The notes below the pieces were generated by a model. It had not been told where the DNA came from and ran no database searches. It was given only the letters and a program-made list of their open reading frames with translations. Both the position numbers and the translations under genes were made by a program. Positions 13,579 through 64,000 of a stretch of DNA of 64,000 nucleotides are shown here, piece after piece. The DNA is taken from positions 1,674,001 to 1,738,000 of the forward strand of contig NZ_SMFZ01000001.1 of NCBI RefSeq assembly GCF_004339565.1. The letters are read 5' to 3'. How positions within the stretch are numbered: position 1 is the stretch's first letter; every line of letters starts with the position of its first letter. The stretch comes from Pseudonocardia endophytica. GTDB taxonomy: Bacteria; Actinomycetota; Actinomycetes; Mycobacteriales; Pseudonocardiaceae.

Positions 13579-13606
13579 ACCTCACCGACCAGACCAGGAG
13601 ACTCTG

Positions 13607-16918: not shown

Positions 16919-16925
16919 AACCGGA

Positions 16926-17264: not shown

Positions 17265-17288
17265 GCCGGTCGCGAGATCGCTCCCCAT

Positions 17289-17309: not shown

Positions 17310-17375
17310 TTCACTCCTACCGTTCGTGGTGTCGGACCGAGCACCCCACCCGGTCCCCGAACGAGAGGCGCAGCG

Positions 17376-38160: not shown

Positions 38161-38244
38161 GTCCGAGTGGCGGAATGGCAGACGCGCTAGCTTGAGGTGC
38201 TAGTCCCCGAGTAGGGGGTGGGGGTTCAAGTCCCCCCTCGGACA
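38161..38244 (+). tRNA. tRNA-Leu, anticodon GAG
   Basis: The cloverleaf folds clearly. The acceptor arm GTCCGAG pairs with CTCGGAC, with discriminator A at 38244. The anticodon arm CTAGC-TTGAGGT-GCTAG carries GAG. A long variable arm typical of leucine tRNA is present, as is a T arm GGGGG-TTCAAGT-CCCCC. CCA is not encoded. It lies at the left border of the siderophore region. Confidence 0.95.
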
Positions 38245-39310: not shown

Positions 39311-39326
39311 GGTTAGGCTGCCCTAT
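39308..39326. promoter_or_regulatory. Iron-box-like site (IdeR/DmdR type) at the divergent starts
   Basis: The core TTAGGCTGCCCTAT (39313-39326) closely follows the actinobacterial iron-box pattern TTAGGCTnnCCTAA, and the full 19-base window agrees at about 13 positions with the IdeR/DtxR consensus. It directly precedes the ATG at 39327 of the binding-protein gene. Repression by an IdeR/DmdR protein with Fe2+ would switch on uptake and synthesis in low iron. No binding test is available. Confidence 0.55.
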
Positions 39327-44134: not shown

Positions 44135-45475
44135 ATGTCGACGACCGGAACGCTCGGCTACCGGGAGGAGACCGTCCACGGGCGGTTCGACCCGGTGACG
44201 ACCGGCGCGCGGCTGGCCGCGTCCGGGCTGTTCGAGTCCCATGTGGTCTACGAACGCGAGGGCCGGTGCACGTTCGCGGGCGGCGCGCTCGGTGAGGTGA
44301 CCGTGCACGACGACCGGGTGCGCACCCGGTGGCGGGACGCGGTGACGGAACTCCCGCGCACCGACCGGCCGTTGCGTCAGGTCGGGGACGCGCTCGCCGC
44401 GCTGCCGTGGCCGGGCTGGAACGCCTACGGCTGGGTGGAGTTCGAGCTGGCCGACCCGGATCCGAACGGTCGCGCTGTGGGGTGCAGGCCGGGACTGCAC
44501 CTGACCGTTCCGCACACCGAGGTGGTGATCCGCCCGGACCGGGTGCGGGTGCGCAGCGCCGATCCCGAGCGGTCCGCCGCCGTGCGCGGCCTGCTGGCCG
44601 GGACCGATGCGCCGGAACCCGCGGCGGCCGAGCCGATCGCCGTCGACGGTGACGCCCGGTCCTATCAGGACGCCGTGGCCCGCGCCGTCGAGGAGATCCG
44701 GCGGGGCGCGCTGCAGAAGGTGATCCTGTCGCGCTCGGTGCCGGTGCCGTTCCCGGTCGACCTGGTCGGGACGTACCTGCGGGGCCGGGCGGCGAACACA
44801 CCGGCGCGGTCGTTCCTGATCGACCTCGGCGGTCGCCGGGCCGTCGGGTTCAGCCCGGAGACCGTCGTCGAGGTGGCGCCGGACGGCCGCGTGGAGACCC
44901 AGCCGCTCGCGGGCACCCGCGCGTTCGGGCTCGGTCACGGCGCCGACGAGCGCCTGACGACCGAGCTGCTCTCCGACCCGAAGGAGGTGTTCGAGCACGC
45001 CGTGTCGGTCAAGCTCGCCTACGACGAGCTGCACGCCGTCTGCGCACCCGGCTCCGTCGCGGTCACCGAGCTGATGGCGGTCCGCCGCCGCGGCAGCGTG
45101 CAGCACCTGGCGTCCCGGGTCGCCGGCCGGCTCGCCGCGACCCGCACGGCGTGGGATGCGCTGGCCGCGGTGTTCCCGGCGGTCACCGCGTCCGGGATCC
45201 CGAAGGCCGCGGCCTACGAGTGCATCCGGCGGTGGGAGTCCCAGCCGCGGGGGCTGTACGCGGGGGCGGTGCTCACGGCGTCGCACGACGGGTCGCTGGA
45301 CGCCTGCCTCGTGCTGCGCACGCTGTTCGAGGAGGACGGACGAGCCTGGCTGCGGGCCGGCGCGGGCGTGGTCGCCGGCTCCGTTCCGGAGCGGGAGTAC
45401 GAGGAGACCTGCGAGAAGCTCCGCAGCATCGCCCCCCACGTCGTGCCGTCGCCGCGCGCCGAGACCCGGATCTGA
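44135..45475 (+). CDS. Salicylate synthase (MbtI/Irp9/YbtS type)
   Basis: This 446-residue chorismate-utilising enzyme has an N-terminal half that is a poorly conserved beta domain. The C-terminal catalytic part has LQKVILSR, with the base Lys, ARSFLIDLGGRRAVGFSPETVVE, TQPLAGTRAFG, and RRGSVQHLASRV. PAVTASGIPKAAAYECI and GAGVVAGSVPEREYEETCEKL closely resemble mycobacterial MbtI. It converts chorismate through isochorismate to salicylate and pyruvate. Salicylate is the expected starter for the aryl carrier protein at the front of the next gene, which starts 12 bases downstream. Confidence 0.92.
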   Translation: MSTTGTLGYREETVHGRFDPVTTGARLAASGLFESHVVYEREGRCTFAGGALGEVTVHDDRVRTRWRDAVTELPRTDRPLRQVGDALAALPWPGWNAYGWVEFELADPDPNGRAVGCRPGLHLTVPHTEVVIRPDRVRVRSADPERSAAVRGLLAGTDAPEPAAAEPIAVDGDARSYQDAVARAVEEIRRGALQKVILSRSVPVPFPVDLVGTYLRGRAANTPARSFLIDLGGRRAVGFSPETVVEVAPDGRVETQPLAGTRAFGLGHGADERLTTELLSDPKEVFEHAVSVKLAYDELHAVCAPGSVAVTELMAVRRRGSVQHLASRVAGRLAATRTAWDALAAVFPAVTASGIPKAAAYECIRRWESQPRGLYAGAVLTASHDGSLDACLVLRTLFEEDGRAWLRAGAGVVAGSVPEREYEETCEKLRSIAPHVVPSPRAETRI

Positions 45476-45487
45476 GAGGCAGCCGAC

Positions 45488-48400
45488 GTGGACGTGCAGA
45501 AGACGTCACTCACGCTGGAGTCGGTCCGCTGCGAGGTGGCCGACGTGCTCGGCTGCGCGCCGGACGACCTCGCGCCCGACGAGGACCTGCTGCTGCTGGG
45601 CCTCGACTCGGTCGCCATGATGCGGCTGGCCGGCCGGTGGCGGCGCGCGGGCGTCGCGGTGTCGTTCGCCGAGATGGCCGAAACGCCGACGCTGGCGGCC
45701 TGGTCGGCGCTGCTGGCCGGGCCGAACGCGGACTCCGGGCCTGAACCGGCCGGGATCGAGATCGACGAACGGGCACCGTTCGCGCTCACCCCGGTGCAGC
45801 ACGCCTACTGGGTCGGCCGCGGCGACGACCAGCCGCTCGGCGGCGTCGGCTGCCACGCCTACCTCGAGTTCGACGGCGCGGGCGTCGACCCGGCGCGTCT
45901 GGACGCGGCCGTCGCCGGGCTCGTCGCGCGGCACTCCCAGCTGCGCGCCCGCTTCGGCGACGACGGCACCCAGCAGCTCACCGACACCGGCGCCTGGACC
46001 GGTGTGACCGTGCACGACCTGCGCGACGACGCGGACGTCGACCGCGCACTCGCCGACGTCCGGGAACGGCTCTCCCACCGCAGGCTCGACGTCGCCGCCG
46101 GGCAGGTGTTCGACGTGGCGCTCTCGCTGCTGCCGGGCGGCGCGACCCGCGTGCACCTCGAGCTGGACCTGCTCGTCGCCGACGTGCTCAGCCTGCAGAT
46201 CCTGTGCCGCGACCTGGCCGCGCTCTACGCCGACCCGGCGGCCGCGCTCCCGCCCGCCGGGTACGGCTTCGCCCGCTACCTGGCCGAGCGGGCGGCGCGG
46301 AGCGGCCCGCAGCGGGAGCGGGCCCGCGCGTACTGGCAGGAGCGGATCGGCGAGCTGCCCGGCGGTCCGCAGCTGCCGCTGGCCGTCGACCCGGACGCGG
46401 TGCGCCGCCCGCGGTTCACCCGCCGCGTGCACCGGGTGTCCGCGGAGGACACGGCACGCCTGGTCGGTCTCGCCCGCGCGCACGACCTGACGCCGGCGAT
46501 GGTGCTCGCCACCGCCTACGCGCTGACGCTGGCGGCGTGGAGCGCCGAGCCGCGGTTCCTGCTCAACCTGCCGTTGTTCGACCGTCAGGAGATCCATCCC
46601 GACGTGCCGAACATGGTCGCGGACTTCACGAACCTGGTGCTGGTCGACGTCGACACGACCCCGGAGGCCGCCGCGACGTTCGTCGGTGCGGCCCACCGGG
46701 TGCAGTCCCGGATGCGGGCGAACGCCGACCACGCCGGGTACTCCGCGATCGAGGTGCTGCGCGACCTCGCCCGGAACCGCCCGGACGAGCGGCGGACCGC
46801 GCCCGTCGTGTTCGCCAGCAACATCGGCAGCGAGCTGCTCGACGCGCGGTTCCGCTCGGCGATCGGCGAGCTCGGCTGGATGATCTCGCAGACGCCACAG
46901 GTCTGGCTCGACCACCAGCTCTACGAGGTCGACGGCGGGCTGATGCTCACGTGGGACTCCGTCGACGCGCTGTTCCCGGACGGTGTACCGGACGCGATGT
47001 TCGACGCGTACCGGCGCCTGCTCGCCCGCCTGCTCGCCGGCGGGTGGGACCGGCCCCTGCCTGCGCTCGTGCCGGACGCGCAGCTCGCCGTCCGGGCCGC
47101 GGTCAACGCCACCGCCGGGCCGTGCCCGGACGCGCTGCTGCACGACGGCTTCTTCGCCAGGGCCGCCGAGCGGCCGGACCGCACGGCTCTGCTGCACGAC
47201 GGCGGCATGACGACCTACAGCGAGCTCGCCGCGCTGGCCCTGTGCGTGGCGGGTCACCTGTCGCACACCGGCCTGGCCCCGGGCGAGCCGGTGGCGGTCA
47301 CCGTCCCCCGGGGTCCGGGACAGATCGTCGCCGTACTCGGGATCCTCGCCGCCGGCGGCGTGTACGTGCCGGTCGGCGTCGACCAGCCCCCCGCCCGCCG
47401 CGAGCGCATCCACGCCGCCGCAGGCATCCGCACCGTGATCACCCCGGCCGTTCTCGACGAGGCCCGCGGCGCCCGCCCGCTCACCGCTCCCCTGCCCGTC
47501 GACCCGGACGCCCTCGCCTACGTGATCTTCACGTCCGGCTCCACCGGAGAACCCAAGGGCGTCGAGATCACCCACCGGGCGGCCGTCAACACGATCGACG
47601 ACATCAACCGACGGTTCCACATCGGACCCGACGACCGCGTGCTCGCCGTCTCCGCGCTGGACTTCGACCTCTCCGTGTACGACGTGTTCGGGCTTCTCGG
47701 AGCGGGCGGCGCCGTGGTGCTCGTCGACGAGGCCGATCGCCGTGACCCGGACGTCTGGAACCGCGCCTGCCGCACCCACGGCATCACGGTCTGGAACTCC
47801 GTCCCGGCACTGCTGGACATGCTGCTCGTCGCCGCCGGGGACGTACCGCCGACGCTGCGGCTGGCCATGGTGTCCGGCGACTGGGTGCCGCTCGACCTGC
47901 CCGGCCGCGTCCGCACCGCGAGCGACGGCCGCTGCCGGCTCGTCGCGCTCGGCGGCGCCACCGAGGCCGCGATCTGGTCCAACTGGTTCGACACCGCCGA
48001 CCAGCCGCCCGGCTGGCCGTCCGTCCCCTACGGACACCCACTGACCAACCAGCGCTTCCGCGTCGTCGACGAGCACGCCCACGACTGCCCCGACTGGGTC
48101 CCCGGCGAGCTCTGGATCGGCGGCACCGGTGTCGCGCAGGGCTACCGCGGCGACCCGGACCGCACCGCCGACCGGTTCGTCACCCACGACGGGCACCGCT
48201 GGTACCGCACCGGCGACCTCGGCCGCTACCACCCCGACGGCACCCTGGAGTTCCTCGGACGCCGCGACCACCAGGTCAAGATCCGCGGACACCGCATCGA
48301 GCTCGGCGAGATCGAGACCGCGCTGCGCGACGCCCCCGGCGTCCGGGCGGCCGCCGCCGCGGTGACGGTCGGGGGTGGCCGCCGGATCGCGGCCGCGCTG

Positions 48401-51400
48401 GTGCTCGACGGCCCGCCGGACCCGGGCGGCGCCGGGCCGGAGGGATCGGCGCTCGACGCGGTCCGCGCCGCGGCCCGTGCGGCGCTGCCGGGCTACATGG
48501 TCCCGGAGCGCTGGCACGTCGTGGACGCACTGCCCCTGACCGCGAACGGCAAGGTCGACCGGTCGCAGCTGGACCGGGTACTCGCCGAGCTGGACTCCGC
48601 CGAGCCCGAGGTCGCGTCGCTGCCGCCGCAGGGAGCGGCCGAGACGGCCGTCGCCGACGCGTGGGCGGCCGAGCTGAACACCGCGGGAATCGGTCGGGAC
48701 GCCGACTTCTTCCTGCTGGGCGGCGACAGCCTGATCGCCACCCGGGTCGTCGCGCGGTTGCGCGCGGACGGCGTCGACGGCGCGGACCTGCCCACCCTGT
48801 TCCGCCGCCCGGTGCTCGCCGACTTCGCGGCATCCCTGCGGACCGGCACACCGGACGCGGAGCGGCCGCCGGTGCTCCCGGCCGACCCGGAGCACAGGCA
48901 CGAACCGTTCGCACTCACCGAGGTGCAGCGTGCCTACTGGCTGGGGCGGTCGACCGGGCTCGCGCTCGGCGGCGTCGGCACGACGTACCACGTCGAGCTG
49001 GACGGCGACCGTGTCGACGTGCCAGGCCTGGAGCGGGCGTTCGACCGCCTGATCGCCCGGCACGAGATGCTCCGCGCCGTCGTCGACGACGACGGGCGCC
49101 AGCGGATCCTGCCCGAGGTCGGCCCGTTCACCATCCCGGTCGCCGAGGCGGACGACGCCGCCGCCGCGTCCGCGCGGATCGAGGCGCAGCTGGCCCGGCC
49201 GCTGTTCGACCTGACGTCGTGGCCGCTGTTCGCGGCGTGCGCCGTGCACTACCCCGACGGCCGCACCCGCCTCGGCGTGACGCTGGACTACGCCGTGTTC
49301 GACGCGCTCAGCGTCAAGCTCGTACTCGCCGAGCTGGCGGTGCTCTACACCGACCCGGACGCGCCGCTCCCGTCGGTCGGGGTGTCGTTCCGGGACTACG
49401 TGGAGAACCTCCCGGCCGACACGGCGGCCCGGGAGGCCGACGAGCGCTGGTGGCGCGACCGGCTGCCGGCGCTGCCGCCCGCGCCACGGCTGCCGCTGGC
49501 GACCGACCCGGCGGACGTCGTCGCGCCGCGGTTCACGCGGCGCACGATCACGGTGCCCGCCGACGCCTGGTCCCGGATCAAGGACCGGGCCCGCGCGCAC
49601 CGGCTCACGCCGTCGGCGGTGCTGCTGGCCGGGTACGCCGACGTGCTCGCCGCCTTCAGCGGCGGCCGCGCGCTGAGCGTCAACCTCACGCTGTTCGACC
49701 GCCGCGCCGTGCACCCGGACATCGACCACGTGCTCGGCGACTTCACGTCGCTGCTGCTCGTGGCGCACTCACCGGGCGACGACCCGGACTGGGCGACGAC
49801 GGCGCGGCGCGTCCAGGAACAGCTCGCCGCGGGCCTGGAGCACCGGTCGGTGTCGGCGGTGTGGGTGCAGCGCGAGCTGACCCGCACGGTCGGGCAGGCC
49901 GAGGCGGCGATGCCGGTCGTGTTCACCAGCACGCTCGGCATGGACGACGACCTGTTCGACCGGATGCCCGACGGGTTCCCAGAGCTGGTGGGCGGGTTGT
50001 CCCAGACCCCGCAGGTGTGGCTGGACCAGCAGGTCATGGAACAGCGGGGTGACCTTGTGGTGTCCTGGGACGCCGTCGAGGACCTGTTCCCGGACGGCCT
50101 GCTGGACACGATGTTCGACGCGTACCGGCGCCTGCTGGACCACCTCGCCGAGCGCGGGTGGGACGCGCCGGCGCCCGCGCACCTCCCGGCGTCGCAGCGC
50201 GCCGTCCGCGAGGCGGTGAATGCGACCGGCGCCCCCGAGCCGGTCGGCCTGCTGCACGACGCGATCTTCCACCACGCCGGCGCCGTGCCGGACCGGATCG
50301 CGCTGCTGTGGGGCGACGAGACGGTCTCCTACGGCGAGCTGGCCGATCGGGCGCTGCGGCTGGCCGGGCACCTGCGCCGCACCGGCGTCGAGCGCGGCGA
50401 GCCCGTCGCGGTGACGCTGCCGCGCGGCCCCGGACAGGTCGTCGCGGTGCTCGGGATCCTCGCCGCGGGCGGTGTCTACGTGCCGGTCGGCGTCGACCAG
50501 CCGGCCGCGCGCCGCGAACGCATCCACGCCGCCGCCGGGGTTCGCAGCGTGGTCACGGAGGCGTTGCTGAAGCAGACGGGCGAGCCTCTCGACGCGCCCG
50601 TCGCGGTCGACCGGGACGCCCTCGCCTACGTGATCTTCACGTCCGGCTCCACCGGAGAACCCAAGGGCGTCGAGATCACCCACCGCGCCGCCCTCAACAC
50701 CGTCGTCGACATCAACCGGCGATTCCACATCGGACCCGACGACCGCGTCCTCGCCGTGTCCGCACTGGACTTCGACCTCTCCGTGTACGACGTGTTCGGC
50801 CTGCTCGGCGCCGGTGGCGCCGTCGTGCTCGTGGCCGACGAGGACCGCCGGGACCCGGACGCCTGGTCGCGCGCCTGCCGCACCCATGGCGTCACGGTCT
50901 GGAACTCGGTCCCCGCCCTGCTGGACATGCTGCTGGTCACGGCGACCGACCTGCCGCCCACGCTGCGCCTCGCGATGGTCTCCGGGGACTGGGTACCGCT
51001 CGACCTGCCCGCGCGGGTCCGCACGGCGGGCGGCGGGCGGTGCCGGCTCGTCGCGCTGGGCGGCGCCACCGAGGCCGCGATCTGGTCCAACTGGTTCGAC
51101 ACGGCCGACCAACCCGCCGGCTGGCCGTCCGTCCCCTACGGACACCCCTTGACGAACCAGCGCTTCCGGGTCGTCGACGAGCGGGAGCGCGACTGCCCCG
51201 ACTGGGTTCCCGGCGAGCTGTGGATCGGCGGGACCGGTGTCGCGCAGGGCTACCGGGGGGACCCGGGGAAGACGGCGGAACGGTTCGTCGAGCACGACGG
51301 CGAGCGTTGGTACCGCACCGGCGACCTCGGGCGCTACCACCCCGACGGAACCCTGGAGTTCCTCGGACGCCGCGACCACCAGGTCAAGATCCGCGGACAC

Positions 51401-54400
51401 CGCATCGAGCTCGGCGAGATCGAGACCGCGCTGCGCGACCACCCGGGTGTGCAGGACGCCGTCGCGGGCGTCGACGCGGAGCGACGCCGGATCGTCGCCG
51501 CCGTCGTCGAGGCCGCCGCCGAACCGGTCACGGCGCCCCGGTTCGCCGAGGACGCGCCGGTCGTCGACCCGGCCCGCGTCGTGGAGGCCGAGCTCACCGA
51601 GGCGCTGCTCGCCCGGGTGCTCACGCGGGATCTCGCGGACGGGACCGAGCCGCCGCGCGCCTGGCGGGACTGGCTCGTGGGACGCGGTGCGGCCGACCTC
51701 ACGGATCTCGCGGAGCGGGCGGACGACGCGCGGTGGGCCGAGCTGAGCCGCCGGGCGGCGGGCACCCACCTCGCCCCGGTCGCCGCCGCGCTGGACGCGC
51801 GGCGGGTCGAGCTGGCCGCGATCGTGGGCGGTGAGCAGGACCCGCGCACGCTGCTCGACGACCCGCTGCTGTCCCCGGAGGCGCAGGCCGCGTCCCGGCC
51901 GGAGACGGTCACCGCGCTCGGCGAGATCGCCGACCGGCTGACCGCGCTGGCCGCGTTCCTCGACCGCCCGGTGCGTGTCGTCGAGCTGGGCGCACGCACC
52001 GGGACGAGCGCCGAACGCCTGCTGACGGAGGTGCCCGGGCTCGACTACGTCCTCACCGACCCGTCGGCCGCGCTGCTCGACGCCGCCCGCACCCGCCTGC
52101 ACGGGCACCGGGCGACGGCCGTCGCGCTGCCGGACGGCGTCGTGCCGGACGACCTGCGTCACCGGTTCGACGTGGTGCTGGCGGTCGGCGCGCTGCACCG
52201 GGAGGCCGACCCGGTCGCGGCCGGACGGCTCGTTTCGCTGCTGCTCGCGCCCGGCGGGCGGCTGCTCGCGTGGGAGCCCGCCGAGCTCGCGCCGCTGTCG
52301 CTGCTGACCGTGCCGCTGCTGGACGACGGCGCCGGGTCGCGGAGCCCGCTGCTGTCCGCGACCGAGTGGGCCGAGACACTGACGGCGGCCCGTCTGGACG
52401 CCGTCGAGATCGCGGGCCGCGGGCCGTCGTTGCTGATGGGGGCGCTGCGCCCGGCCGACCGGCCGGTAGCCGACCCGGAGGTGCTCGGCTCCTGGCTCAC
52501 CGACCGGCTGCCCGCCCACATGGTCCCCGACCGGATCGGCGTCCTGGCGTCGGTCCCGCTCAGTGCGAACGGCAAGGTCGACCGGGACCGCGTCCTGCGG
52601 CTGCTCGGCGCCGGTGCGCCGCAACCGGAGTTCGTCGCGCCGCGCGGACGGTCCGAGCAGGCCGTCGCCGCGATCTGGGCCGACCTGCTCGGCGTGCCGA
52701 GGGTCAGCCGCGACGGTGACTTCTTCCTGCTCGGCGGCGACAGCCTCATCGCGACCCGGCTCGTGGCCCGGCTGCGCGGAGCCGGGCTGACCGCCGGCTC
52801 GTCGTCCGGCGTGCTCGGGCGCCTGTTCCAGAACCCGGTGCTGTCCGACTTCGTCGCCGGCCTGCGAGCCGCGGAAGGGACCGCTCCGGACCGGGTGCTC
52901 GTGCCCGACCCGGACCGACGCCACGAGCCGTTCGACCTCAGCGACGTGCAGCAGGCGTACTGGCTGGGCAGGCAGGCCGGGTTCACGCTCGGCGCCGTCG
53001 GCTCGCACTGCTACTTCGAGTTCGACGGCCGCGACGTCGACCCGGCCCGGATCGAGGAGGCCTGCAACCGGCTCGTCGCCCGCCACGACATGCTCCGCAC
53101 GGTCGTCGACCCGGACGGGCGGCAGCGGGTCCTCCGGGACGTCGGGCGGTTCACCGTGCCGGTCGTCGACCGGACCGGCACCGACCCGGCCGAGGCACGG
53201 GAGGCACTGGAGGCGCTGCGCGCCGCCATGTCCCACCAGGTCGTCGACCTGGGGCGCTGGCCGCTGCTCGACATCCGTGCCGTCCGCCACACCGGACCCG
53301 ACGGTGCCGTGCGTCTGCGGTTCGGCGTCAGCCTGGACAACTTCGTGTTCGACGGCCTCAGCATGATGATCTTCTTCGCGGAGCTGTCGGCGCTGTACCG
53401 CGACCCGGACGCGGCGCTGCCGCCGGTGGGGATCACGTTCCGGGACTGCGTCACCGGCGTCGAGACCGATCCGGCGACCCGCGAGCAGGCGCAGCGGTAC
53501 TGGTCCGAGCGACTCGCCACGCTGCCGCCCGCGCCGAAGCTGCCGCTGGCCGCGGACCCGGCCGGCGTCACGCGGCCGCGGTTCGTCCGCCGGGAGACCC
53601 GTCTGGACGCGGCGACCTGGACCGCGATCAAGCAGCGGGCCCGGGAGAACGGGCTCACGCCGTCGGTGGTGCTGCTGACCTGCTACGCCCAGGTGCTCGC
53701 GGCGTGGAGCGAGCGCCAGGACGTCACGGTGAACCTCACGCTGTTCGACCGGCACGACGTGCACCCGGACGTCGGGCACGTGATCGGCGACTTCACCGCG
53801 CTGCTGCTCGTCGCCCACGACCCGCAGCCGGGGGCGACGTGGCTCGCCGACGCGACGCGGCTGCGCGAGCAGCTCGGGCGCGACCTGGCCCACCGGGACG
53901 TGTCGGCGGTGGCGGTCCAGCGGGAGCTGGCGCGCGTCGCCGGCGCCGCGGACGCGGCGATGCCGGTCGTGTTCACGAGCGCGCTCGGCCTGGACGACGA
54001 CCTGTTCGACCGCGCCTTCGACGCGCCGTGGCAGCAGGTCTGGGGGGTGTCCCAGACGCCGCAGGTGTGGCTGGACCACCAGGTGATGGAGCAGCGCGGG
54101 TCGCTCGTGCTGTCCTGGGACGCGGTCGACGAGCTGTTCGAGCCGGGCGTGCTCGACGCGATGTTCGACGCCTACGTCGGCCGGCTCGCGTGGCTGGCCG
54201 GCGGCGCGTGGGACTCCGCGGCGCCGCAGCTCGTGCCGCCGGAGCAGCTCGCCGTCCGCGCGGCGGTCAACGCCACCGACGCGCCCCTCCCGGAGGGTTT
54301 ACTGCACGAGGGCTTCTTCGCCCACGCCGCCGCCCGGCCGGACCGGCCCGCGCTGTTCACCGACAACGGGCCGGTCACCTACGGCGAGCTCGCCGACCGT

Positions 54401-57400: not shown

Positions 57401-59113
57401 TTCGCCCGGGCCACCGCCGCACCGGAGCGCCCCGCGCTGCTCGGCGACGGCATCGAGATCGCGTACGGGGGGCTCGCGGACGCGGCGCTGCGCGTGGCGG
57501 CGGTGTTGCGCGACAGCGGGGTGCGGGACGGGGACACGGTCGCGGTGACGGTGCCCCGCGGACCGGGACAGATCGTCGGCGTGCTCGGCGTGCTGGCCGC
57601 GGGCGGAACCTACGTGCCGGTCGGTGTCGACCAGCCGCCCGCCCGCCGGGACCGGATCCACGCCGCCGCCGGCGTGCGGACGGTGGTCACCGAGGCGCTG
57701 CTGGAGCGGGCCCGGACCCGCGACCCGCTGGACGCGCCGGTGCCCGTCGATCCGGACGCGCTCGCGTACGTGATCTTCACGTCCGGCTCCACCGGAGAAC
57801 CCAAGGGCGTCGAGATCACCCACCGGGCGGCCGTCAACACGGTCGACGACGTCAAACGCCGGTTCCACATCGGATCCGGCGACCGGGTGCTGGCGATCTC
57901 GGCGCTGGACTTCGACCTGTCCGTGTACGACGTGTTCGGGCTGCTCGGCGCCGGCGGCGCCGTGGTGCTCGTCGACGAGGCCGACCGCCGCGAGGCGCGG
58001 GCCTGGCTGCGGGCCTGCCGCACGCACGGCGTGACCGTGTGGAACTCGGTCCCCGCGCTGCTGGACATGCTGCTGGTCGTCGCGGAAGAACTCCCGCCTG
58101 CGCTGCGGCTGGCGTTGGTGTCCGGCGACTGGGTCGGCCTCGACCTGCCGGGCAGGCTGGCCGCGGCGAGCGGCGGCCGGTGCCGGCTGATCTCGCTGGG
58201 CGGGGCGACCGAGGCCGCGATCTGGTCCAACCACTTCGACGTCGCGGACCAGCCGCCGGGCTGGACGTCGGTCCCGTACGGACACCCGCTGGCCAACCAG
58301 CGCTTCCGGGTCGTCGACGACCTCGGGCGGGACTGCCCGGACCTGGTCCCGGGTGAGCTGTGGATCGGCGGAACCGGTGTGGCGCAGGGCTACCGGGGCG
58401 ACCCGGAGCGCACGGCCGAGCGGTTCGTCGAGCACGGCGGGGAGCGCTGGTACCGCACCGGCGACCTGGGCCGCTACCACCCGGACGGCACCCTGGAGTT
58501 CCTCGGACGCCGCGACCACCAGGTCAAGATCCGCGGACACCGCATCGAGCTCGGCGAGATCGAGGCGGCCCTGGCGGAGCACCCGGGTGTCGCGCAGGTG
58601 AAGGCGATCGCCCCCGGCGGGCGCGGGGACCGGCGGATCGCGGTCGTCGTCGTGCCGGCCGATCCGGGCCTGGCCACCGGCGACCTGCCCGCGTTCCTCG
58701 CCGACCGGCTACCGGCCTACGCACTGCCGTCGGTGTACGCGACGGCCGACCGGCTCCCGTTGACGCCCAACGGGAAGGTCGACGCGCGTGCGCTGGCGGC
58801 GCTCGTCGCGACGGACGAGGTGTCCGACATGGACGATCCGGCGGACGGCCCGGCCGAGGAGGCCGTCGCGGCGGTCTGGGCCGAGGTGCTGGAGCTGCCG
58901 GACCCGCCCGGCCGCGGCCAGAACTTCTTCGGTCTCGGCGGCGACTCGCTCGCCGCCACCCGGTGCGTGGAGATCCTGCACCGGCGCTACGGCGTGGAGC
59001 TGTCGCTGCGGCAGCTGTTCACCACACCCACGGTGGCCGACACGGCCGCCCAGCTCACGGCCGACGGCGCGGGGGCATTCGAGTCCGGTTCCTGGGAGGA
59101 AGGCGTCGTATGA
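45488..59113 (+). CDS. Non-ribosomal peptide synthetase 1: ArCP-[Cy-A-PCP] x4, all cysteine
   Basis: A 4541-residue NRPS starts at a GTG preceded by GAGAGG. Domains: aryl carrier protein (Ser41 in LGLDSV); Cy1 (about 95-545) with Asp227/Asp232; A1; PCP1 (Ser1081); Cy2 from about 1138 with Asp1267/Asp1272; A2 interrupted between core motifs A8 and A9 by a methyltransferase-like insert (about 2005-2325); PCP2 (Ser2419); Cy3 with Asp2617/Asp2622; A3; PCP3 (Ser3456); Cy4 with Asp3646/Asp3651; A4; PCP4 (Ser4487); short tail ESGSWEEGVV. Each condensation domain has DxxxxD instead of HHxxxDG plus (S/T)QTPQVWLD, the marks of heterocyclisation. Binding-pocket residues read DLYNMSLIW in A1-A3 and DLYNLSLIW in A4, the cysteine code of yersiniabactin and bacitracin synthetases. 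Salicylate would be loaded on the ArCP and extended by four Cys-derived rings. The stop overlaps the next gene (ATGA). Confidence 0.93.
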   Translation: MDVQKTSLTLESVRCEVADVLGCAPDDLAPDEDLLLLGLDSVAMMRLAGRWRRAGVAVSFAEMAETPTLAAWSALLAGPNADSGPEPAGIEIDERAPFALTPVQHAYWVGRGDDQPLGGVGCHAYLEFDGAGVDPARLDAAVAGLVARHSQLRARFGDDGTQQLTDTGAWTGVTVHDLRDDADVDRALADVRERLSHRRLDVAAGQVFDVALSLLPGGATRVHLELDLLVADVLSLQILCRDLAALYADPAAALPPAGYGFARYLAERAARSGPQRERARAYWQERIGELPGGPQLPLAVDPDAVRRPRFTRRVHRVSAEDTARLVGLARAHDLTPAMVLATAYALTLAAWSAEPRFLLNLPLFDRQEIHPDVPNMVADFTNLVLVDVDTTPEAAATFVGAAHRVQSRMRANADHAGYSAIEVLRDLARNRPDERRTAPVVFASNIGSELLDARFRSAIGELGWMISQTPQVWLDHQLYEVDGGLMLTWDSVDALFPDGVPDAMFDAYRRLLARLLAGGWDRPLPALVPDAQLAVRAAVNATAGPCPDALLHDGFFARAAERPDRTALLHDGGMTTYSELAALALCVAGHLSHTGLAPGEPVAVTVPRGPGQIVAVLGILAAGGVYVPVGVDQPPARRERIHAAAGIRTVITPAVLDEARGARPLTAPLPVDPDALAYVIFTSGSTGEPKGVEITHRAAVNTIDDINRRFHIGPDDRVLAVSALDFDLSVYDVFGLLGAGGAVVLVDEADRRDPDVWNRACRTHGITVWNSVPALLDMLLVAAGDVPPTLRLAMVSGDWVPLDLPGRVRTASDGRCRLVALGGATEAAIWSNWFDTADQPPGWPSVPYGHPLTNQRFRVVDEHAHDCPDWVPGELWIGGTGVAQGYRGDPDRTADRFVTHDGHRWYRTGDLGRYHPDGTLEFLGRRDHQVKIRGHRIELGEIETALRDAPGVRAAAAAVTVGGGRRIAAALVLDGPPDPGGAGPEGSALDAVRAAARAALPGYMVPERWHVVDALPLTANGKVDRSQLDRVLAELDSAEPEVASLPPQGAAETAVADAWAAELNTAGIGRDADFFLLGGDSLIATRVVARLRADGVDGADLPTLFRRPVLADFAASLRTGTPDAERPPVLPADPEHRHEPFALTEVQRAYWLGRSTGLALGGVGTTYHVELDGDRVDVPGLERAFDRLIARHEMLRAVVDDDGRQRILPEVGPFTIPVAEADDAAAASARIEAQLARPLFDLTSWPLFAACAVHYPDGRTRLGVTLDYAVFDALSVKLVLAELAVLYTDPDAPLPSVGVSFRDYVENLPADTAAREADERWWRDRLPALPPAPRLPLATDPADVVAPRFTRRTITVPADAWSRIKDRARAHRLTPSAVLLAGYADVLAAFSGGRALSVNLTLFDRRAVHPDIDHVLGDFTSLLLVAHSPGDDPDWATTARRVQEQLAAGLEHRSVSAVWVQRELTRTVGQAEAAMPVVFTSTLGMDDDLFDRMPDGFPELVGGLSQTPQVWLDQQVMEQRGDLVVSWDAVEDLFPDGLLDTMFDAYRRLLDHLAERGWDAPAPAHLPASQRAVREAVNATGAPEPVGLLHDAIFHHAGAVPDRIALLWGDETVSYGELADRALRLAGHLRRTGVERGEPVAVTLPRGPGQVVAVLGILAAGGVYVPVGVDQPAARRERIHAAAGVRSVVTEALLKQTGEPLDAPVAVDRDALAYVIFTSGSTGEPKGVEITHRAALNTVVDINRRFHIGPDDRVLAVSALDFDLSVYDVFGLLGAGGAVVLVADEDRRDPDAWSRACRTHGVTVWNSVPALLDMLLVTATDLPPTLRLAMVSGDWVPLDLPARVRTAGGGRCRLVALGGATEAAIWSNWFDTADQPAGWPSVPYGHPLTNQRFRVVDERERDCPDWVPGELWIGGTGVAQGYRGDPGKTAERFVEHDGERWYRTGDLGRYHPDGTLEFLGRRDHQVKIRGHRIELGEIETALRDHPGVQDAVAGVDAERRRIVAAVVEAAAEPVTAPRFAEDAPVVDPARVVEAELTEALLARVLTRDLADGTEPPRAWRDWLVGRGAADLTDLAERADDARWAELSRRAAGTHLAPVAAALDARRVELAAIVGGEQDPRTLLDDPLLSPEAQAASRPETVTALGEIADRLTALAAFLDRPVRVVELGARTGTSAERLLTEVPGLDYVLTDPSAALLDAARTRLHGHRATAVALPDGVVPDDLRHRFDVVLAVGALHREADPVAAGRLVSLLLAPGGRLLAWEPAELAPLSLLTVPLLDDGAGSRSPLLSATEWAETLTAARLDAVEIAGRGPSLLMGALRPADRPVADPEVLGSWLTDRLPAHMVPDRIGVLASVPLSANGKVDRDRVLRLLGAGAPQPEFVAPRGRSEQAVAAIWADLLGVPRVSRDGDFFLLGGDSLIATRLVARLRGAGLTAGSSSGVLGRLFQNPVLSDFVAGLRAAEGTAPDRVLVPDPDRRHEPFDLSDVQQAYWLGRQAGFTLGAVGSHCYFEFDGRDVDPARIEEACNRLVARHDMLRTVVDPDGRQRVLRDVGRFTVPVVDRTGTDPAEAREALEALRAAMSHQVVDLGRWPLLDIRAVRHTGPDGAVRLRFGVSLDNFVFDGLSMMIFFAELSALYRDPDAALPPVGITFRDCVTGVETDPATREQAQRYWSERLATLPPAPKLPLAADPAGVTRPRFVRRETRLDAATWTAIKQRARENGLTPSVVLLTCYAQVLAAWSERQDVTVNLTLFDRHDVHPDVGHVIGDFTALLLVAHDPQPGATWLADATRLREQLGRDLAHRDVSAVAVQRELARVAGAADAAMPVVFTSALGLDDDLFDRAFDAPWQQVWGVSQTPQVWLDHQVMEQRGSLVLSWDAVDELFEPGVLDAMFDAYVGRLAWLAGGAWDSAAPQLVPPEQLAVRAAVNATDAPLPEGLLHEGFFAHAAARPDRPALFTDNGPVTYGELADRALRLAGHLVTGGLASGAPAAVTLPRGPDQVVAVLGILAAGGVYVPVGTDQPAHRRERIRAAAGVRTVVDRAVVDGSRSSEPLPAPVAVDRDALAYVIFTSGSTGEPKGVEITHRAALNTVVDINRRFHIGPDDRVLAVSALDFDLSVYDVFGLLGAGGALVPTTDDERRDPDAWLRACRTHGVTVWNSVPALLDMLLVTADALPPTLRLAMVSGDWVPLDLPDRVRTASAGRCRLIALGGATEAAIWSNWFDTAALQSGWTSVPYGRPLTNQRFRVVDTHGRDCPDHVLGELWIGGAGVAQGYRGDPGKTAERFVEHDGQRWYRTGDLGRYHPDGTLEFLGRRDHQVKIRGHRIELGEIETALAEHPGVAAAVAVAGGDRHHRTLAAFVVAGPELDPAALGPFLADRLPAYAVPAAFTVLDSLPLTSNGKVDRSRLTVDAAPAAEPVRSAPRGPVEELVAGAWADLLGVRTVGRDDDFFLLGGDSLVATRLVARLRAAGVGGVALNRLFEAPTLAGFCASLSTTGAVEERPAALALVADPERRHEPFPPTDVQRAYWLGRDEQFVLGGVGAHFYAELDGADVDVARLEQAWNGLIARHDMLRTVFDDDGRQRVLPDVGRFVIPVVDGGDEDLERLRDRMSHQVLDPSRWPLFDVRAVRYVDGGGQRRTRIGVGLDNLLVDALSIVAIYTELSRRYADPAVEPAPVEPTFRDYVLSVAPPPEVRERSEAWWRERIGTLPPAPRLPLAAEPAALPRPRFSRREARLGAERWATITERARAAGLTPSTVLMACYAEVLSAWSAQADLTLNLTLFDRRDVHPDIDRVLGDFTSLLLVPHRPRAGETWLERARRLQGEVWAGLEHRDVSAVWVQRELTKQTGDPDASMPVVFTSALGGHYELDDDLFGYADLVWGLTQTPQVWLDHQVVEYRGELVLNWDAVDDLFPDGMLDAMFAAYLGLLDRLDGDGWDAPAPELLPAAQAEVRRRVNATAHPEHPRPLHHDVFARATAAPERPALLGDGIEIAYGGLADAALRVAAVLRDSGVRDGDTVAVTVPRGPGQIVGVLGVLAAGGTYVPVGVDQPPARRDRIHAAAGVRTVVTEALLERARTRDPLDAPVPVDPDALAYVIFTSGSTGEPKGVEITHRAAVNTVDDVKRRFHIGSGDRVLAISALDFDLSVYDVFGLLGAGGAVVLVDEADRREARAWLRACRTHGVTVWNSVPALLDMLLVVAEELPPALRLALVSGDWVGLDLPGRLAAASGGRCRLISLGGATEAAIWSNHFDVADQPPGWTSVPYGHPLANQRFRVVDDLGRDCPDLVPGELWIGGTGVAQGYRGDPERTAERFVEHGGERWYRTGDLGRYHPDGTLEFLGRRDHQVKIRGHRIELGEIEAALAEHPGVAQVKAIAPGGRGDRRIAVVVVPADPGLATGDLPAFLADRLPAYALPSVYATADRLPLTPNGKVDARALAALVATDEVSDMDDPADGPAEEAVAAVWAEVLELPDPPGRGQNFFGLGGDSLAATRCVEILHRRYGVELSLRQLFTTPTVADTAAQLTADGAGAFESGSWEEGVV

Positions 59114-62100
59114 CTTCGACTGCACAGACAGCTCCGTCGGCGGCACGGCAGGACGTGGCCGCCCTCGTCCGCGAGATCGAAGAGCTCGGCGTCCGTCTCT
59201 GGACCGACGACGGCAGGCTCCGCTTCCGCGCACCGCGCGGGGTGATCACCGACGAGCTCCGGGAACGCCTGCGCGAGAACCGGACCGGGATCGTCGAACA
59301 CCTGAGCGACGACCGTCCGGTGATCGCGGCGGATCCGGATGCGGCGCACGCGCCGTTCCCGCTCACCGACGTGCAGTCGGCCTACCTGCTGGGCCGCCGG
59401 GACGCGTTCGGCTACGGCGGTGTGGCCTGCCATGCCTACCTGGAGGCCGCGTTCACCGACCTCGACCCCGCCCGCCTGCAGGATGCGTGGCGGGCGCTGG
59501 TCGCGCGCCACGGCATGCTCAGGGCCGTCGTGCACCCGGACGGGCACCAGCAGGTGCTGCCCGAGGTGCCGGACTACGAGATCGCCGTCGACGACCTGCG
59601 CGGCGCCGGTCAGGACGCCGTCGACGCGGCCGTCGCACGCACCCGGGCCGAGCTGGACCACCGCGTCCACCCCACCGACCGGTGGCCGCTGTTCGACCTG
59701 CGCGTCACCCGGTCCGACGGGCGGGCGCTGCTGCACCTGTCGATCGACCTGCTGATCGCCGACTACGCGAGCGTGCAGCTCCTGCTGGCCGAGCTCGACC
59801 GGCTCTACCGGGAGCCCGAGACGCCGCTGCCGCCACTGGAGATCGGCTTCCGGGACCACGTCCTCGCCGTCCGCGGCCGGGCGGGCGGTCCAGCCCACGA
59901 GCGCGACCGCGCCTACTGGGCCGCGCGGATCGACGACCTCCCGCCCGCGCCGGAGCTGCCCGTCGCCCCGGACGCCGAGCGGGCCGCGGGTGTCGTGCCC
60001 CGGTTCCGGCGGTGGCGCGACGCGCTCACCCCGTCCGAGTGGACGGCCCTGCGCGACCGCGCCGCCGCCGAGGGCATCAGCCCGACCGGCGCGCTCACCG
60101 CGGCTTACGCCGAGGTGATCGGGCGGTGGAGCCGCCACCCGCGGTTCACGCTGAACCTCACGCTGCTGGGCAGGCCGCCGGTGCACCCGCAGGTGGGCGC
60201 GCTGGTCGGGGACTTCACGTCGGTGACGCTGCTGGCCGTCGAGCAGGACCGCTCCGCGACGTTCCGGGAGCGGGCGGGCGCCGTCGCCGCGCAGCTGTTC
60301 GAGGACATGGACCACCGCTCCCACTCGGGCATCGAGGTGATCCGGGAGATCGCCCGCAGGCGCGGGCGGCGCGAGGCCCTGATGCCGGTCGTGTTCACCA
60401 GCGCGGTCGGTCTGAACGCCGACGAGCACGCGGAGGCGCTCACCGGGCAGGGCACGCTCGTGCACGGCATCACCCAGACCCCGCAGGTGTGGCTGGACTG
60501 CCAGGTGCTCGAACACCACGGCGCCCTGCAGATCAGCTGGGACGTGCGCGACGGAGTGCTGCCGGACGCCGTCGTCGACGACATGTTCGCCGCCTACGTC
60601 GCGCTCGTGCGGGCGCTCGCCCGGGACGCCGGCACCTGGCGGGACACGTGTCCGGTCGGGCTGCCGCCCGCCCAGGCGCAGCGGCGCGCCGAGGTCAACG
60701 ACACCGCCGCCCCGCTGCCGGACGAGCGGCTGCACGACGGGTTCGTCGCCCGCGCCCGGCAGGCGCCGGACGAGCCGGCCGTCGTCACGTCGTCCGCGTC
60801 GCTGTCCTACGCCGACGTCGCGGCCGGGGCGGGTGCGGTCGCGCAGGCACTGCGCGCCGTGGGCCACGAGCCCGGCGGGATCGTCGGCGTGCTCACCGAG
60901 CGGGGCCCCGAGCAGGTGCTCGCCGTGCTCGGCACGACGATCGTCGGTGGCGTCTACCTCCCGGTCGACACGAACCAGCCCCCCGCACGGCGCGACGCGC
61001 TGCTCGCCGACGCGGGCGTCCGAACCGTGCTGACCCAGTCGTGGCTGTCCACCCTGGACCTGCCCGCGGGGATCCGGGTGATCGCCGTCGACCGGCTCGG
61101 GCCGTCCACGGACGTGCCGGAGCCCGCCGCCGTCGACCCGGACGACCTCGCCTACGTGATCTACACGTCCGGCTCGACCGGCGCCCCGAAGGGCGTGATG
61201 ACCACCCACCGCGCCGCGGTCAATACGGTGGCCGACATCAACCGCCGGTTCCGGGTCGGTCCGGGCGACCGCGTGCTCGGACTCGCCCAGCTCGGTTTCG
61301 ACCTGTCCGTCTACGACGTGTTCGGCACGCTCGCCGCCGGCGCCACGCTCGTCCTGCCGGACCCGGACCGGCGCGGGGACCCGTCGCACTGGGCCCGGCT
61401 GGCCGCGGCCACGGGCGTCACCGTGTGGAACTCGGTGCCCGCCCAGCTCCAGATGCTGGAGCACTACCTGGCCGCCGAGGACCCGGCCGACCCGCTGCCG
61501 TCGGTGCGCCTGGCCCTGCTATCCGGCGACTGGATCCCGGTGACGCTGCCCGCCGCGATCGCATCCCGGCTGCCCGGGTGCGCGCTGGTCAGCCTCGGCG
61601 GCGCCACCGAGGCCGCGATCTGGTCGATCGTGCACCCGATCGGCGACGTCCCGGACGGCGCGCGGAGCGTCCCGTACGGCACGCCGCTGACGAACCAGAC
61701 GTTCCACGTGCTCGACGGCGCGCTCGACCCGGTCCCCGACCTGGTCCCCGGCGAGCTGTACATCGGCGGCGCGGGGCTTGCGCGCGGCTACCTCGGCGAC
61801 CCGGAGCGCACGGCAGAGCGGTTCGTCCGGCACCCGGTCACCGGCGAGCGCCTCTACCGGACTGGGGACCTCGGCCGGTACCTGCCGGACGGGGTGATCG
61901 AGTTCCTGGGCCGGGAGGACGACCAGGTCAAGATCCGCGGGCACCGCATCGAGCTCGCCGAGGTGGAGGCCGCGCTGACGTCGCACCCGGCCGTCGGCGC
62001 AGCCGCCGTCGTCGTGGACGACGACCCGGGAGCCGACCGCACGACCCGCGGGCTGGACCGGCGGCTGGCGGCGTTCGCCGAGCCGCAGCGCGCGCCGCGC

Positions 62101-64000
62101 CCGGACGACGGGTTCGCCGCGCAGCTGGCCGCCGCCGCGACCGCGGCCGGAGCGGACGCGACCCGCGACCTGGACCGCTCCGTGATCGTCGAGTTCTCGG
62201 AGATGCTCGATGCGGTCTGCCTGCTGTCGATGGCGCACGCGTTCCGCCGGGTCGGGCTGTTCCCGGACGCAGGTCCGGGACATCTGATCGAGGAGATCCA
62301 GCGGACGGCCGAGGTCGCGCCACCGCACCGCAGGCAGGTCCGTCGCTGGCTGGCCACGTTGCGGGACAACGGGATGATCTCCCATGACCCGGTCACCGGG
62401 CGCTGGCACGACCTCACGCCGACCGACGACGCGTCCGTCGCCGCGGCGTGGGAGGCCGCCGAGGCCGTGCAGGCCGGCCTGGTCTACCCGGACGAGCTGA
62501 TGCGCTACTTCCGGGCCTGCACCGACCACCTTCCCGCGCTGCTGCGCGACGACCAGGGTCCGATGCAGCTGATGTTCCCGGACGGCGGGCTGGAGACCGC
62601 GGACGCCGCGTACCGGAACAACCTCTACGCGCGCTACCTCAACCGGGCCGTCATCGCCGCCGTCGAGATGCTCGTCGACCGGCACACCGGGCCCGCGCCG
62701 CTGCGCGTGCTGGAGATCGGCGCCGGCGTCGGCGGCACGAGCAACGACCTCGTCCCGGCGCTCGCCCGGCGCGTCGCGGCCGGAGCGGACGTCGAGTACA
62801 CGTTCACCGACATCTCGCACTTCTTCCTCAACGAGGCCCGCGAACGGTTCCGCGACCTCCCCTGGATGCGTTACGGGATCTTCGACATCGACGAGCCGTT
62901 CCGCGAGCAGGGCCTCACGGCGGGTACCTACGACGTCGTCGTGGCGGCCAACGTCATGCACAACGCCCGCCACGTCGGGCGCGCCGTCGAGCAGTTCTCC
63001 GAGCTGCTCGTCCCGGGCGGGGTGTTCGTGATGCTCGAGTCCACGAAGGAGCACCACGAGGTCATGGTCTCGATGGAGTTCATGATGGAGTTCGACGAGT
63101 CCCGTCCCGACTTCTCCGACGTCCGCGCCGGTCAGGAGCGGGTGTTCGTGCTCCGCGACGAGTGGTCGGACGTGTTCGCCGCGGCGGGCGGCGAGACGGC
63201 CGTCGTGCTCCCGGCGCCCGACGACGAGCTGTCCGTGCTCGGGCAGAACCTGTTCGTCACGCGCTTCAGGAGCGACCGGGTCCGCACCGACGTCGAGTCG
63301 CTGCGCGCGCACCTGGCGCACCGGCTGCCGGAGCACATGATCCCGTCGCACCTGGAGCTCGTCGGCGCGCTGCCGCTGTCCGGCACCGGGAAGGTCGACC
63401 GCCGGACGCTGACGTCGTGGTTGCCGTCCGCGCCCGCGGCGGCGACCGCGTCCGGCGGCGCGGCACCCCGCACGGAGACCGAGCGCCTGGTCGCGACGCT
63501 CTGGGCGCAGGTCCTCGGCACCACCGGCGTCGGGCGCGACGACGACTTCTTCCGCATCGGCGGCGACTCGCTGCTCGTCGCGCAGCTGGTCGGGGCGCTG
63601 CGCACGCAGCTCCCGGCGGCCGCGGACCTGGACTGGGACGGGCTGCTGCGCCAGATGCTCAACGAGCCGACGGTCGCCGCGCTCGCCGCGCACCTGGACG
63701 CGACGCAGGCCGGCGGCGCCCCGCCTGCCGCCTCGCCGGTGATCCCGATGGGCGGGTCCGGCGCCTCGCGCGCGGAGCCCGTCCGGGTCCTCGTCCACGA
63801 AGGACTCGGCTCGATCGCACCCTACCGGCCGCTCGCCGCGCGCCTCGCCGGGCACGGTCCCGTGATCGGGCTGGCCGTGCCCAGCGCCGAGGCGTACCTG
63901 GCGCGCGACCCGGACACACTGATCGTCGACCTCGCCGCCGAGTACGCCGAGCTGCTCGGGGAACGGCACGAACGGTTCCACGTCGTCGGGTACTGCATGG
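59110..64000 (+). CDS. Non-ribosomal peptide synthetase 2 (incomplete at right edge): docking-Cy-A(MT)-PCP-TE
   Basis: The frame stays open from ATG 59110 to the window end (1630 codons seen). Residues 10-55 (VREIEELGVRLWTDDGRLRF) match TubC-type N-terminal docking domains. Cy5 follows from about residue 81 with Asp213/Asp218 and Thr430. A5 starts near 541 with code DLYNLSLIW (cysteine). A full methyltransferase is inserted between A8 and A9; its SAM motif VLEIGAGVGGTS begins at Val1200. A10 is GKVDRRTL, PCP5 uses Ser1487 in GGDSLL, and a thioesterase begins near 1559. The layout is like PchF of pyochelin synthesis. It would add a fifth cysteine, methylate the residue or ring, and release the product. 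The nucleophile elbow reads GYCM at 1627-1630, a Cys where Ser is usual, just before the sequence ends. Confidence 0.92.
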   Translation, partial: MTSTAQTAPSAARQDVAALVREIEELGVRLWTDDGRLRFRAPRGVITDELRERLRENRTGIVEHLSDDRPVIAADPDAAHAPFPLTDVQSAYLLGRRDAFGYGGVACHAYLEAAFTDLDPARLQDAWRALVARHGMLRAVVHPDGHQQVLPEVPDYEIAVDDLRGAGQDAVDAAVARTRAELDHRVHPTDRWPLFDLRVTRSDGRALLHLSIDLLIADYASVQLLLAELDRLYREPETPLPPLEIGFRDHVLAVRGRAGGPAHERDRAYWAARIDDLPPAPELPVAPDAERAAGVVPRFRRWRDALTPSEWTALRDRAAAEGISPTGALTAAYAEVIGRWSRHPRFTLNLTLLGRPPVHPQVGALVGDFTSVTLLAVEQDRSATFRERAGAVAAQLFEDMDHRSHSGIEVIREIARRRGRREALMPVVFTSAVGLNADEHAEALTGQGTLVHGITQTPQVWLDCQVLEHHGALQISWDVRDGVLPDAVVDDMFAAYVALVRALARDAGTWRDTCPVGLPPAQAQRRAEVNDTAAPLPDERLHDGFVARARQAPDEPAVVTSSASLSYADVAAGAGAVAQALRAVGHEPGGIVGVLTERGPEQVLAVLGTTIVGGVYLPVDTNQPPARRDALLADAGVRTVLTQSWLSTLDLPAGIRVIAVDRLGPSTDVPEPAAVDPDDLAYVIYTSGSTGAPKGVMTTHRAAVNTVADINRRFRVGPGDRVLGLAQLGFDLSVYDVFGTLAAGATLVLPDPDRRGDPSHWARLAAATGVTVWNSVPAQLQMLEHYLAAEDPADPLPSVRLALLSGDWIPVTLPAAIASRLPGCALVSLGGATEAAIWSIVHPIGDVPDGARSVPYGTPLTNQTFHVLDGALDPVPDLVPGELYIGGAGLARGYLGDPERTAERFVRHPVTGERLYRTGDLGRYLPDGVIEFLGREDDQVKIRGHRIELAEVEAALTSHPAVGAAAVVVDDDPGADRTTRGLDRRLAAFAEPQRAPRPDDGFAAQLAAAATAAGADATRDLDRSVIVEFSEMLDAVCLLSMAHAFRRVGLFPDAGPGHLIEEIQRTAEVAPPHRRQVRRWLATLRDNGMISHDPVTGRWHDLTPTDDASVAAAWEAAEAVQAGLVYPDELMRYFRACTDHLPALLRDDQGPMQLMFPDGGLETADAAYRNNLYARYLNRAVIAAVEMLVDRHTGPAPLRVLEIGAGVGGTSNDLVPALARRVAAGADVEYTFTDISHFFLNEARERFRDLPWMRYGIFDIDEPFREQGLTAGTYDVVVAANVMHNARHVGRAVEQFSELLVPGGVFVMLESTKEHHEVMVSMEFMMEFDESRPDFSDVRAGQERVFVLRDEWSDVFAAAGGETAVVLPAPDDELSVLGQNLFVTRFRSDRVRTDVESLRAHLAHRLPEHMIPSHLELVGALPLSGTGKVDRRTLTSWLPSAPAAATASGGAAPRTETERLVATLWAQVLGTTGVGRDDDFFRIGGDSLLVAQLVGALRTQLPAAADLDWDGLLRQMLNEPTVAALAAHLDATQAGGAPPAASPVIPMGGSGASRAEPVRVLVHEGLGSIAPYRPLAARLAGHGPVIGLAVPSAEAYLARDPDTLIVDLAAEYAELLGERHERFHVVGYCM

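Follow-up and report, generated by a model that had tools for sequence, protein, structure and literature searches.

The window analyzed here is a 64-kb (64,000 nucleotides) stretch of a two-contig, 7.57-Mb Pseudonocardia genome (contig 1, positions 1674001-1738000), and the DNA was read to 33 kb beyond its end, with coordinates past 64000 continuing the window numbering. Ten genes follow one another in a single direction at 39327-69404 (forward strand) and encode, in order, a substrate-binding protein, two ABC transporter halves, a salicylate synthase, two nonribosomal peptide synthetases (NRPS1 and NRPS2), a reductase, a type II thioesterase, an aryl-AMP ligase, and an MFS protein (Table 1). 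A four-base overlap is found at every junction from NRPS1 through the aryl-AMP ligase, and the MFS gene begins at a GTG (68199) that lies two bases past the ligase stop codon. Exact direct repeats within NRPS1 and NRPS2 reach 179 bp at most; thus, there is no sign of a collapsed or multiplied assembly. A divergent ORF of 192 aa (38728-39306, reverse strand) adjoins the operon and looks TetR-like by eye, and a Pfam scan of it gave no match. Upstream of both lies a tRNA-Leu(gag) gene (38161-38245). An island at this tRNA was considered and set aside, as its last 50 bases have no 15-base match within 58 kb rightward.

Salicylate is predicted to be both made and activated by products of the cluster. 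The synthase, which a sequence-only reading of the window had placed beside the assembly line together with siderophore transport genes, scores 453.6 against TIGR03494 (cutoff 325.15), and the transport genes were found as claimed. The best model for the aryl-AMP ligase is TIGR02275 (DHB-AMP ligase), with a score of 662.6 that lies below the cutoff of 723.55, so that its substrate is deduced from the salicylate synthase. As for the two ABC halves, the PDB rows that outrank YbtP (6p6i) and IrtA are eukaryotic two-half transporters.

Table 1. Features of the operon and of its two synthetases, in window numbering
Feature	Position	Strand	Basis or remark
Candidate IdeR/DmdR-type iron box	39308-39326	+	13/19 matches; abuts first operon start codon
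Siderophore-type substrate-binding lipoprotein	39327-40361	+	Pfam Peripla_BP_2; weak Fe-enterobactin SBP match
ABC transporter half	40408-42264	+	YbtP (6p6i_A), then IrtA, top-scoring single-half bacterial chains
ABC transporter half, IrtA/YbtPQ-like	42261-44036	+	PDB sequence comparison
Salicylate synthase (chorismate to salicylate)	44135-45475	+	TIGR03494
NRPS1, 4541 aa	45488-59113	+	domain and motif calls
ArCP	45509-45712	+	domain/motif calls
Cy1	45785-47110	+	domain/motif calls, Cy tree
A1, Cys pocket DLYNMSLIW	47120-48562	+	alignment
Cy2	48911-50224	+	domain/motif calls, Cy tree
A2 core, Cys pocket DLYNMSLIW	50240-51511	+	alignment
PchE-type inserted domain in A2 (probable epimerase, MT fold)	51512-52477	+	sequence and fold comparison
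Cy3	52934-54274	+	domain/motif calls, Cy tree
A3, Cys pocket DLYNMSLIW	54299-55699	+	alignment
Cy4, ancestry unlike Cy2/Cy3	56042-57358	+	domain/motif calls, Cy tree
A4, Cys pocket DLYNLSLIW	57371-58786	+	alignment
NRPS2, 1853 aa	59110-64671 (beyond window end)	+	domain calls; PchF-like
Cy5	59350-60699	+	domain/motif calls
A5, Cys pocket DLYNLSLIW	60727-62064	+	alignment
Methyltransferase inserted in A5	62065-63309	+	domain/motif calls; intact SAM motif VLEIGAGVG
Thioesterase, Cys at nucleophile place (GYCMGG)	63730-64659 (in window: 63730-64000)	+	domain/motif calls
Reductase with saccharopine-dehydrogenase domain	64668-65804 (outside window)	+	four-base overlap with NRPS2 end

NRPS1 contains four modules in the order ArCP-Cy-A-PCP-Cy-A[insert]-PCP-Cy-A-PCP-Cy-A-PCP, and NRPS2 contributes the fifth as TubC_N-Cy-A[MT]-PCP-TE, where TubC_N is a docking domain. 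The pockets of the A domains were aligned at what we take to be PheA places 235, 236, 239, 278, 299, 301, 322, 330, and 331; they read DLYNMSLIW in three domains and DLYNLSLIW in two, both presumably cysteine codes. The first four A domains are 72-81% identical to one another (A4 to A1-A3, 72-76%), A5 is 55-57% identical to them, and Cy2-Cy4 share 55-60% identity. DxxxxD is present in all five Cy domains, as is the strip [ST]QTPQVWLD.Q, which covers the places of T474, D480, and Q482, the residues named for PchE in the accessible part of its report (PMC8807600). The pantetheine serine is intact in the six carrier domains, and among proteins of solved structure NRPS1 is most similar to PchE. 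The ArCP and the five copies each of Cy, A, and PCP that had been listed from the letters alone, with their motifs and DLYN(M/L)SLIW pockets, were therefore all recovered by domain calls, motifs, and alignment. The TE listed there is present as well, with only its first part inside the window. These sequence features support well the assignment as a salicyl-capped, all-cysteine, five-module line.

Relatives were collected by scanning GTDB species genomes with an alignment of NRPS2, which returned 421 stretches encoding a relative; because one line may yield several stretches, this is not a number of lines. The best 80 loci were analyzed, and eleven loci were extended for reading.

Two further domains, missed in the earlier inventory, are inserted in A2 and A5. 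By sequence, the best PDB match of the A2 insert is the insert of PchE (1.1e-13; next match 3.1e-7), and Foldseek retrieves the same domain at 1.0e-16 with the predicted model (pLDDT 85.6). In the VIA comparison, this model gives Z 26.1 to the PchE insert (rmsd 3.1 Å over 283 residues, 32% identity) and Z 25.3 at 18% identity to the CurJ C-methyltransferase, which is a tie, and the fold thus gives no separation of an epimerase from a C-methyltransferase. The SAM motif is degenerate (ELGARTG); a canonical one is likewise absent at the equivalent place from all 16 other distinct first-subunit inserts, while 79 of 96 last-subunit inserts have one somewhere (rows, some of them doubled). The catalytic histidine of PchE, H1204, has its counterpart in the A2 insert and is shared by 12 of the 16 other distinct inserts, the four that lack it all belonging to two-module Streptomyces lines; at the place of E1234, proposed as catalytic in PchE, the A2 insert has Leu. 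From its sequence and its modeled fold, the A2 insert is a probable epimerase.

The sequence-only reading had noted neither a polyketide module nor a reductase in view. The first point extends to the whole operon, with no ketosynthase among its ten products; the second does not, as a reductase gene lies just beyond the window. By similarity and gene position this reductase belongs to the PchK family, being 38% identical over 361 residues to the product of the gene directly after the PchF-like gene in Pseudomonas protegens (L059). In Pf-5, PFL_3491, which has the number next to PchF, is annotated as "saccharopine dehydrogenase PchK" in the part of the source available (PMC3377617), and the accessible text of a review describes pchK as a saccharopine reductase. 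Furthermore, sven0516, one of two pchK genes of S. venezuelae, is reported, in the accessible text, as essential for thiazoline reduction (PMC11626248). A second PchK-family gene was also observed in the two-module Streptomyces lines L046, L047, and L114 (extensions L122, L123, and L125), in agreement with the two genes reported for S. venezuelae. A PchK-family reductase was found in 78 of the 80 best related loci, in 11 of 100 separately searched genomes (the window's included), and in 9 of 60 Pseudonocardia genomes. The A2 insert was detected in 2 of 62 Pseudonocardia genomes, namely the window's own and the MAG G057, and a class-wide search found it in 2 of 394 genomes, own included. Within the genus, these frequencies of insert and reductase indicate that the cluster is accessory.

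The closest known systems are those for pyochelin and enantio-pyochelin (PchD, PchE, PchF, PchK, and PchC), which share the aryl-AMP ligase, the ArCP-Cy-A-PCP start, the PchE-type insert, the PchF-like Cy-A[MT]-PCP-TE end with a PchK-family gene right after it, and the type II thioesterase. The pyochelin line, however, has two modules and carries the insert in A1, whereas five modules and an insert in A2 are found here, and salicylate is provided here by one bifunctional synthase. With five cysteine modules against exactly two, the line is a long variant and not a pyochelin line. Yersiniabactin shares the salicyl cap, the Cy modules, the YbtPQ-type ABC pair, and the salicylate synthase; in contrast to it, the present operon has no polyketide module, no Irp3-type reductase, and five cysteine A domains, where HMWP2 of the yersiniabactin synthetase presumably has one. 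The lusichelin cluster of Lusitaniella likewise combines a salicylate synthase with four cysteine heterocyclizing modules, according to the available part of its description (PMC12210259), but polyketide modules are interposed, so that its rings are not all consecutive.

The reading favored here, with a probability of about 0.7, is that the operon encodes a five-module NRPS line of the pyochelin/coelibactin type that makes a salicyl-capped metallophore, the colinear five-ring scheme included. The synthase would convert chorismate to salicylate, which would be loaded as salicyl-AMP onto the ArCP, and each module would then add and cyclize one L-cysteine. The second residue would probably be epimerized by the A2 insert. 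The PchK-family enzyme would reduce one thiazoline, most likely the last, a single reduced ring being predicted by analogy with pathways that use PchK alone. The methyltransferase in A5 may then N-methylate the reduced ring, with C-methylation as the other option. Finally, the TE would hydrolyze the chain to an acid, and the compound would be exported, its metal complex (iron most likely) returning by way of the binding protein and the YbtPQ/IrtA-like ABC pair.

Salicylate plus five cysteines minus ten waters gives C22H21N5O3S5, with a computed [M+H]+ of 564.032, or 578.048 with one methyl added. The best guess from the gene content is C23H25N5O3S5, [M+H]+ about 580.063, with five cysteine rings of which one is reduced and methylated, that is, "pyochelin with three extra thiazolines". 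The run of up to five consecutive cysteine rings on a salicyl cap that had been proposed from the window thus keeps its basis in a five-module, all-cysteine line; a plain oligothiazoline has become less sure in view of the PchK-family gene, the A5 methyltransferase, and the A2 insert. The strictly colinear version, in which five consecutive cysteine-derived rings include one epimerized and one reduced and N-methylated, is held tentatively, at somewhat less than an even chance. If true, the product would amount to pyochelin lengthened by three thiazolines and might wrap a single metal, mainly through its ring nitrogens, or bind two, a chelation mode that to our knowledge has no precedent in the salicyl-cysteine class.

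Since the related lines examined have mostly two to four modules, this one probably makes a novel salicylate-capped metal chelator of greater length. Sixty-two of the best 80 loci (out of 421 stretches) have complete lines and 18 stand outside the count (L066 and L082, cut by contig ends, were dropped, and L056 and L115 were counted as three Cy by eye despite frame breaks). Two Cy domains occur in 10 of these complete lines, three in 37, four in 14, and five in one. Among the ten other reductase-bearing genomes of the 100, G003, G010, and G073 have three modules and G042 and G079 four; in G029, whose frames are broken, three Cy were counted by eye, the lines of G039 and G057 run into contig ends, and G001 and G041 show a different arrangement. 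Within the best 80 loci from the 421 stretches and the 100 genomes, five A-bearing modules were found in the window line only and, in pieces, in the MAG G057. A phylum-wide search matched 3 of 396 genomes, own included, with no further line found. In the literature, the matches listed, which were mostly open-access titles and abstract openings, included no salicyl line in which five cysteine modules follow one another.

The foremost alternative keeps the pathway type and gives up colinearity: modules would be skipped or reused, and the rings would be fewer or more than five. This is less probable than the colinear outcome. The related mupirochelin line is thought, in the accessible part of its report, to add a ring by iteration of a module (PMC10080011), so that module number is no safe guide to ring number. 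Module use also looks flexible among the relatives, as half of the 14 four-Cy lines have four A domains and the other seven have fewer detected A than Cy. The lone five-Cy relative, L068 of Phytoactinopolyspora halotolerans, has three A domains only (1793-17559, T-Cy-A-T-Cy-A-T-Cy-T-Cy-T followed by Cy-A-MT-T-TE), one of which presumably loads several carriers. Against skipping or reuse, none of the five modules described here lacks an A, Cy, or PCP of its own, their motifs are intact, and closely similar versions of modules 2 to 5 occur in a second Pseudonocardia.

That second line, in the MAG G057, is split over two contigs, from both of which ArCP and Cy1 are absent. One contig (L018) carries a module-4-like unit, NRPS2, and the reductase, and the other (L137) carries a partial A, a module-2-like unit with the insert, and a module-3-like unit; the counterparts of Cy2, Cy3, and Cy4 are 83-85% identical to those of the window. 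Inside the NRPS gene of L137 (1-10816) there is an exact 3142-bp repeat with a period of 3087, and the two contig ends share a 55-base repeat. The 3087-base tandem unit reflects either looping of the assembly or a module copied very recently. The repeat at the ends suggests an assembly loop, which makes five modules likely and six possible; a six-module line is not claimed for this MAG.

An unreduced penta-thiazoline, in which the PchK-family protein reduces no ring and the methyltransferase C-methylates the last thiazoline, is an unlikely alternative that ranks just behind. The best solved relative of the A5 insert is the CurJ C-methyltransferase. Moreover, a search of the entire genome with TIGR01761, the model for PchG/Irp3-type reductases, found nothing at E <= 0.001, while in a control with E. 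coli matches above the cutoff were obtained. The same model matched 19 of 21 chosen relatives' genomes, each time no more than about 4 kb from the PchK-family gene (coordinates by eye), and the two without a match are the orthologous MAG G057 and the genome of L051. On the other side, the PchK-family gene is intact and overlaps NRPS2, and a pchK gene accounts for thiazoline reduction in the watasemycin-type and enantio-pyochelin clusters, as stated in the accessible text of the sources. S. scabiei is thought, in a source available in part, to use PchG where others use PchK; therefore, absence of a PchG/Irp3-type reductase does not exclude membership in the pyochelin type, and a single reduction by the PchK-family enzyme remains the preferred reading.

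The choice of iron over another metal draws on the operon start. The iron-box-like site there, scored against what we take to be an IdeR/DmdR-type consensus, is the sole one with at most 6 mismatches in the 64-kb window, and ten 64-kb Markov sequences contained two such sites in total. As a weak site (6 of 19 positions mismatched), it offers a regulatory clue that is suggestive only. A metallophore for zinc or copper instead of iron is rather improbable, although coelibactin is termed a zincophore and mupirochelin also binds zinc (PMC10080011), both according to sources accessible in part. A Zur-like site (at most 5 of 15 mismatches) was not found at the operon start, where the iron-box-like site occurs instead, and the relatives of the transporter include importers of iron siderophores.

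The identity of the first ring and the mode of release were compared with those of sorangibactin and coelibactin, which share NRPS1, NRPS2, a protein with a saccharopine-dehydrogenase domain (SrbE), and the TE cysteine in place of serine. The sorangibactin line, by contrast, has subunits of seven and five domains (three modules), a first residue Ser, a P450, and the Irp3-like SrbI, none of which is found here; its first A domain, in SrbC, was predicted as Cys, yet Ser is incorporated (PMC10127202, accessible part). For mupirochelin, the first A was predicted as Thr in the part of the report available (PMC10080011). The line start is included in 63 loci; the first A has G301 with H331 (once Q331) in 36 of them and lacks this pair in 27; we infer from the residues that this pocket may be of the Ser/Thr (oxazoline) type. 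A P450 motif, sought by regular expression within the locus, occurs in 22 of the 36 loci with this pocket, against 2 of the remaining 44, both with the line start cut off; across L038-L117, G301/H331 together with this motif may mark oxazoline-type lines.

The A1 domain of the window has S301 and W331, that is, no G/H pocket, and the operon contains no P450, which makes cysteine the better call; the pocket speaks against a Ser/Thr-type A1. The TE nucleophile is Cys in 65 of the 80 relatives, in the coelibactin/sorangibactin subgroup and outside it, including the P. protegens locus, Ser in 4, and not readable in 11. Since this residue is common across the kind, it implies no thiolactone, the release as homocysteine thiolactone that might be read from it finds no support, and hydrolysis to the acid is the default. 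Thus, a product of the coelibactin/sorangibactin type, its first ring made from Ser or Thr and its chain closed by a homocysteine thiolactone, for which the TE cysteine and the SrbC precedent speak, is very improbable given the A1 pocket, the operon without P450, and the wide occurrence of the cysteine TE. The comparison also suggests a function for SrbE, which is saccharopine-dehydrogenase-like and of "unknown function" in the accessible part of the sorangibactin paper; the family seen in this operon covers PchK, encoded right after PchF in P. protegens, and SrbE may likewise be a reductase.

How the line reached five modules was addressed with a tree of 79 Cy domains from the window, the MAG, and 20 hand-chosen lines. 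The 21 last Cy domains form one clade (100/100), as do 20 of the 21 first ones (100/100), the exception being a row that is 38% filled. Cy1 of the window falls in a set of four that includes Cy1 of Nonomuraea turkmeniaca (99/90), and the Cy2 and Cy3 domains of the window and the MAG group with Cy2 and Cy3, respectively, of the same species (100/92 and 99/97), the nearest to them outside the genus. The four-module line of N. turkmeniaca (L085 and L121) also has an E-type insert in A2; in contrast to the window line, it lacks the Cy4-type module and retains a PchG/Irp3-type reductase. Cy4, by contrast, is placed with Cy domains that come second in three-module lines (98/88, 8 rows), beside a distant Microbulbifer row (98/80); the Cy of module 4 thus derives from another type of line and was not copied from a neighbor. 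Tandem duplication of a neighboring module, which would have Cy4 group with Cy3 or Cy2, is ruled out for the Cy domain only.

A module 4 with a Cy of foreign ancestry is a natural line extension and, as such, useful for NRPS engineering. The relatives with two, three, four, and five Cy domains form a natural length series on one conserved scaffold, on which the effect of chelator length on metal choice or affinity is directly testable. Genome G438 (L131/L132) encodes a first subunit of 2836 aa with an insert resembling that of PchE, in a line where detected A domains are fewer than Cy domains.
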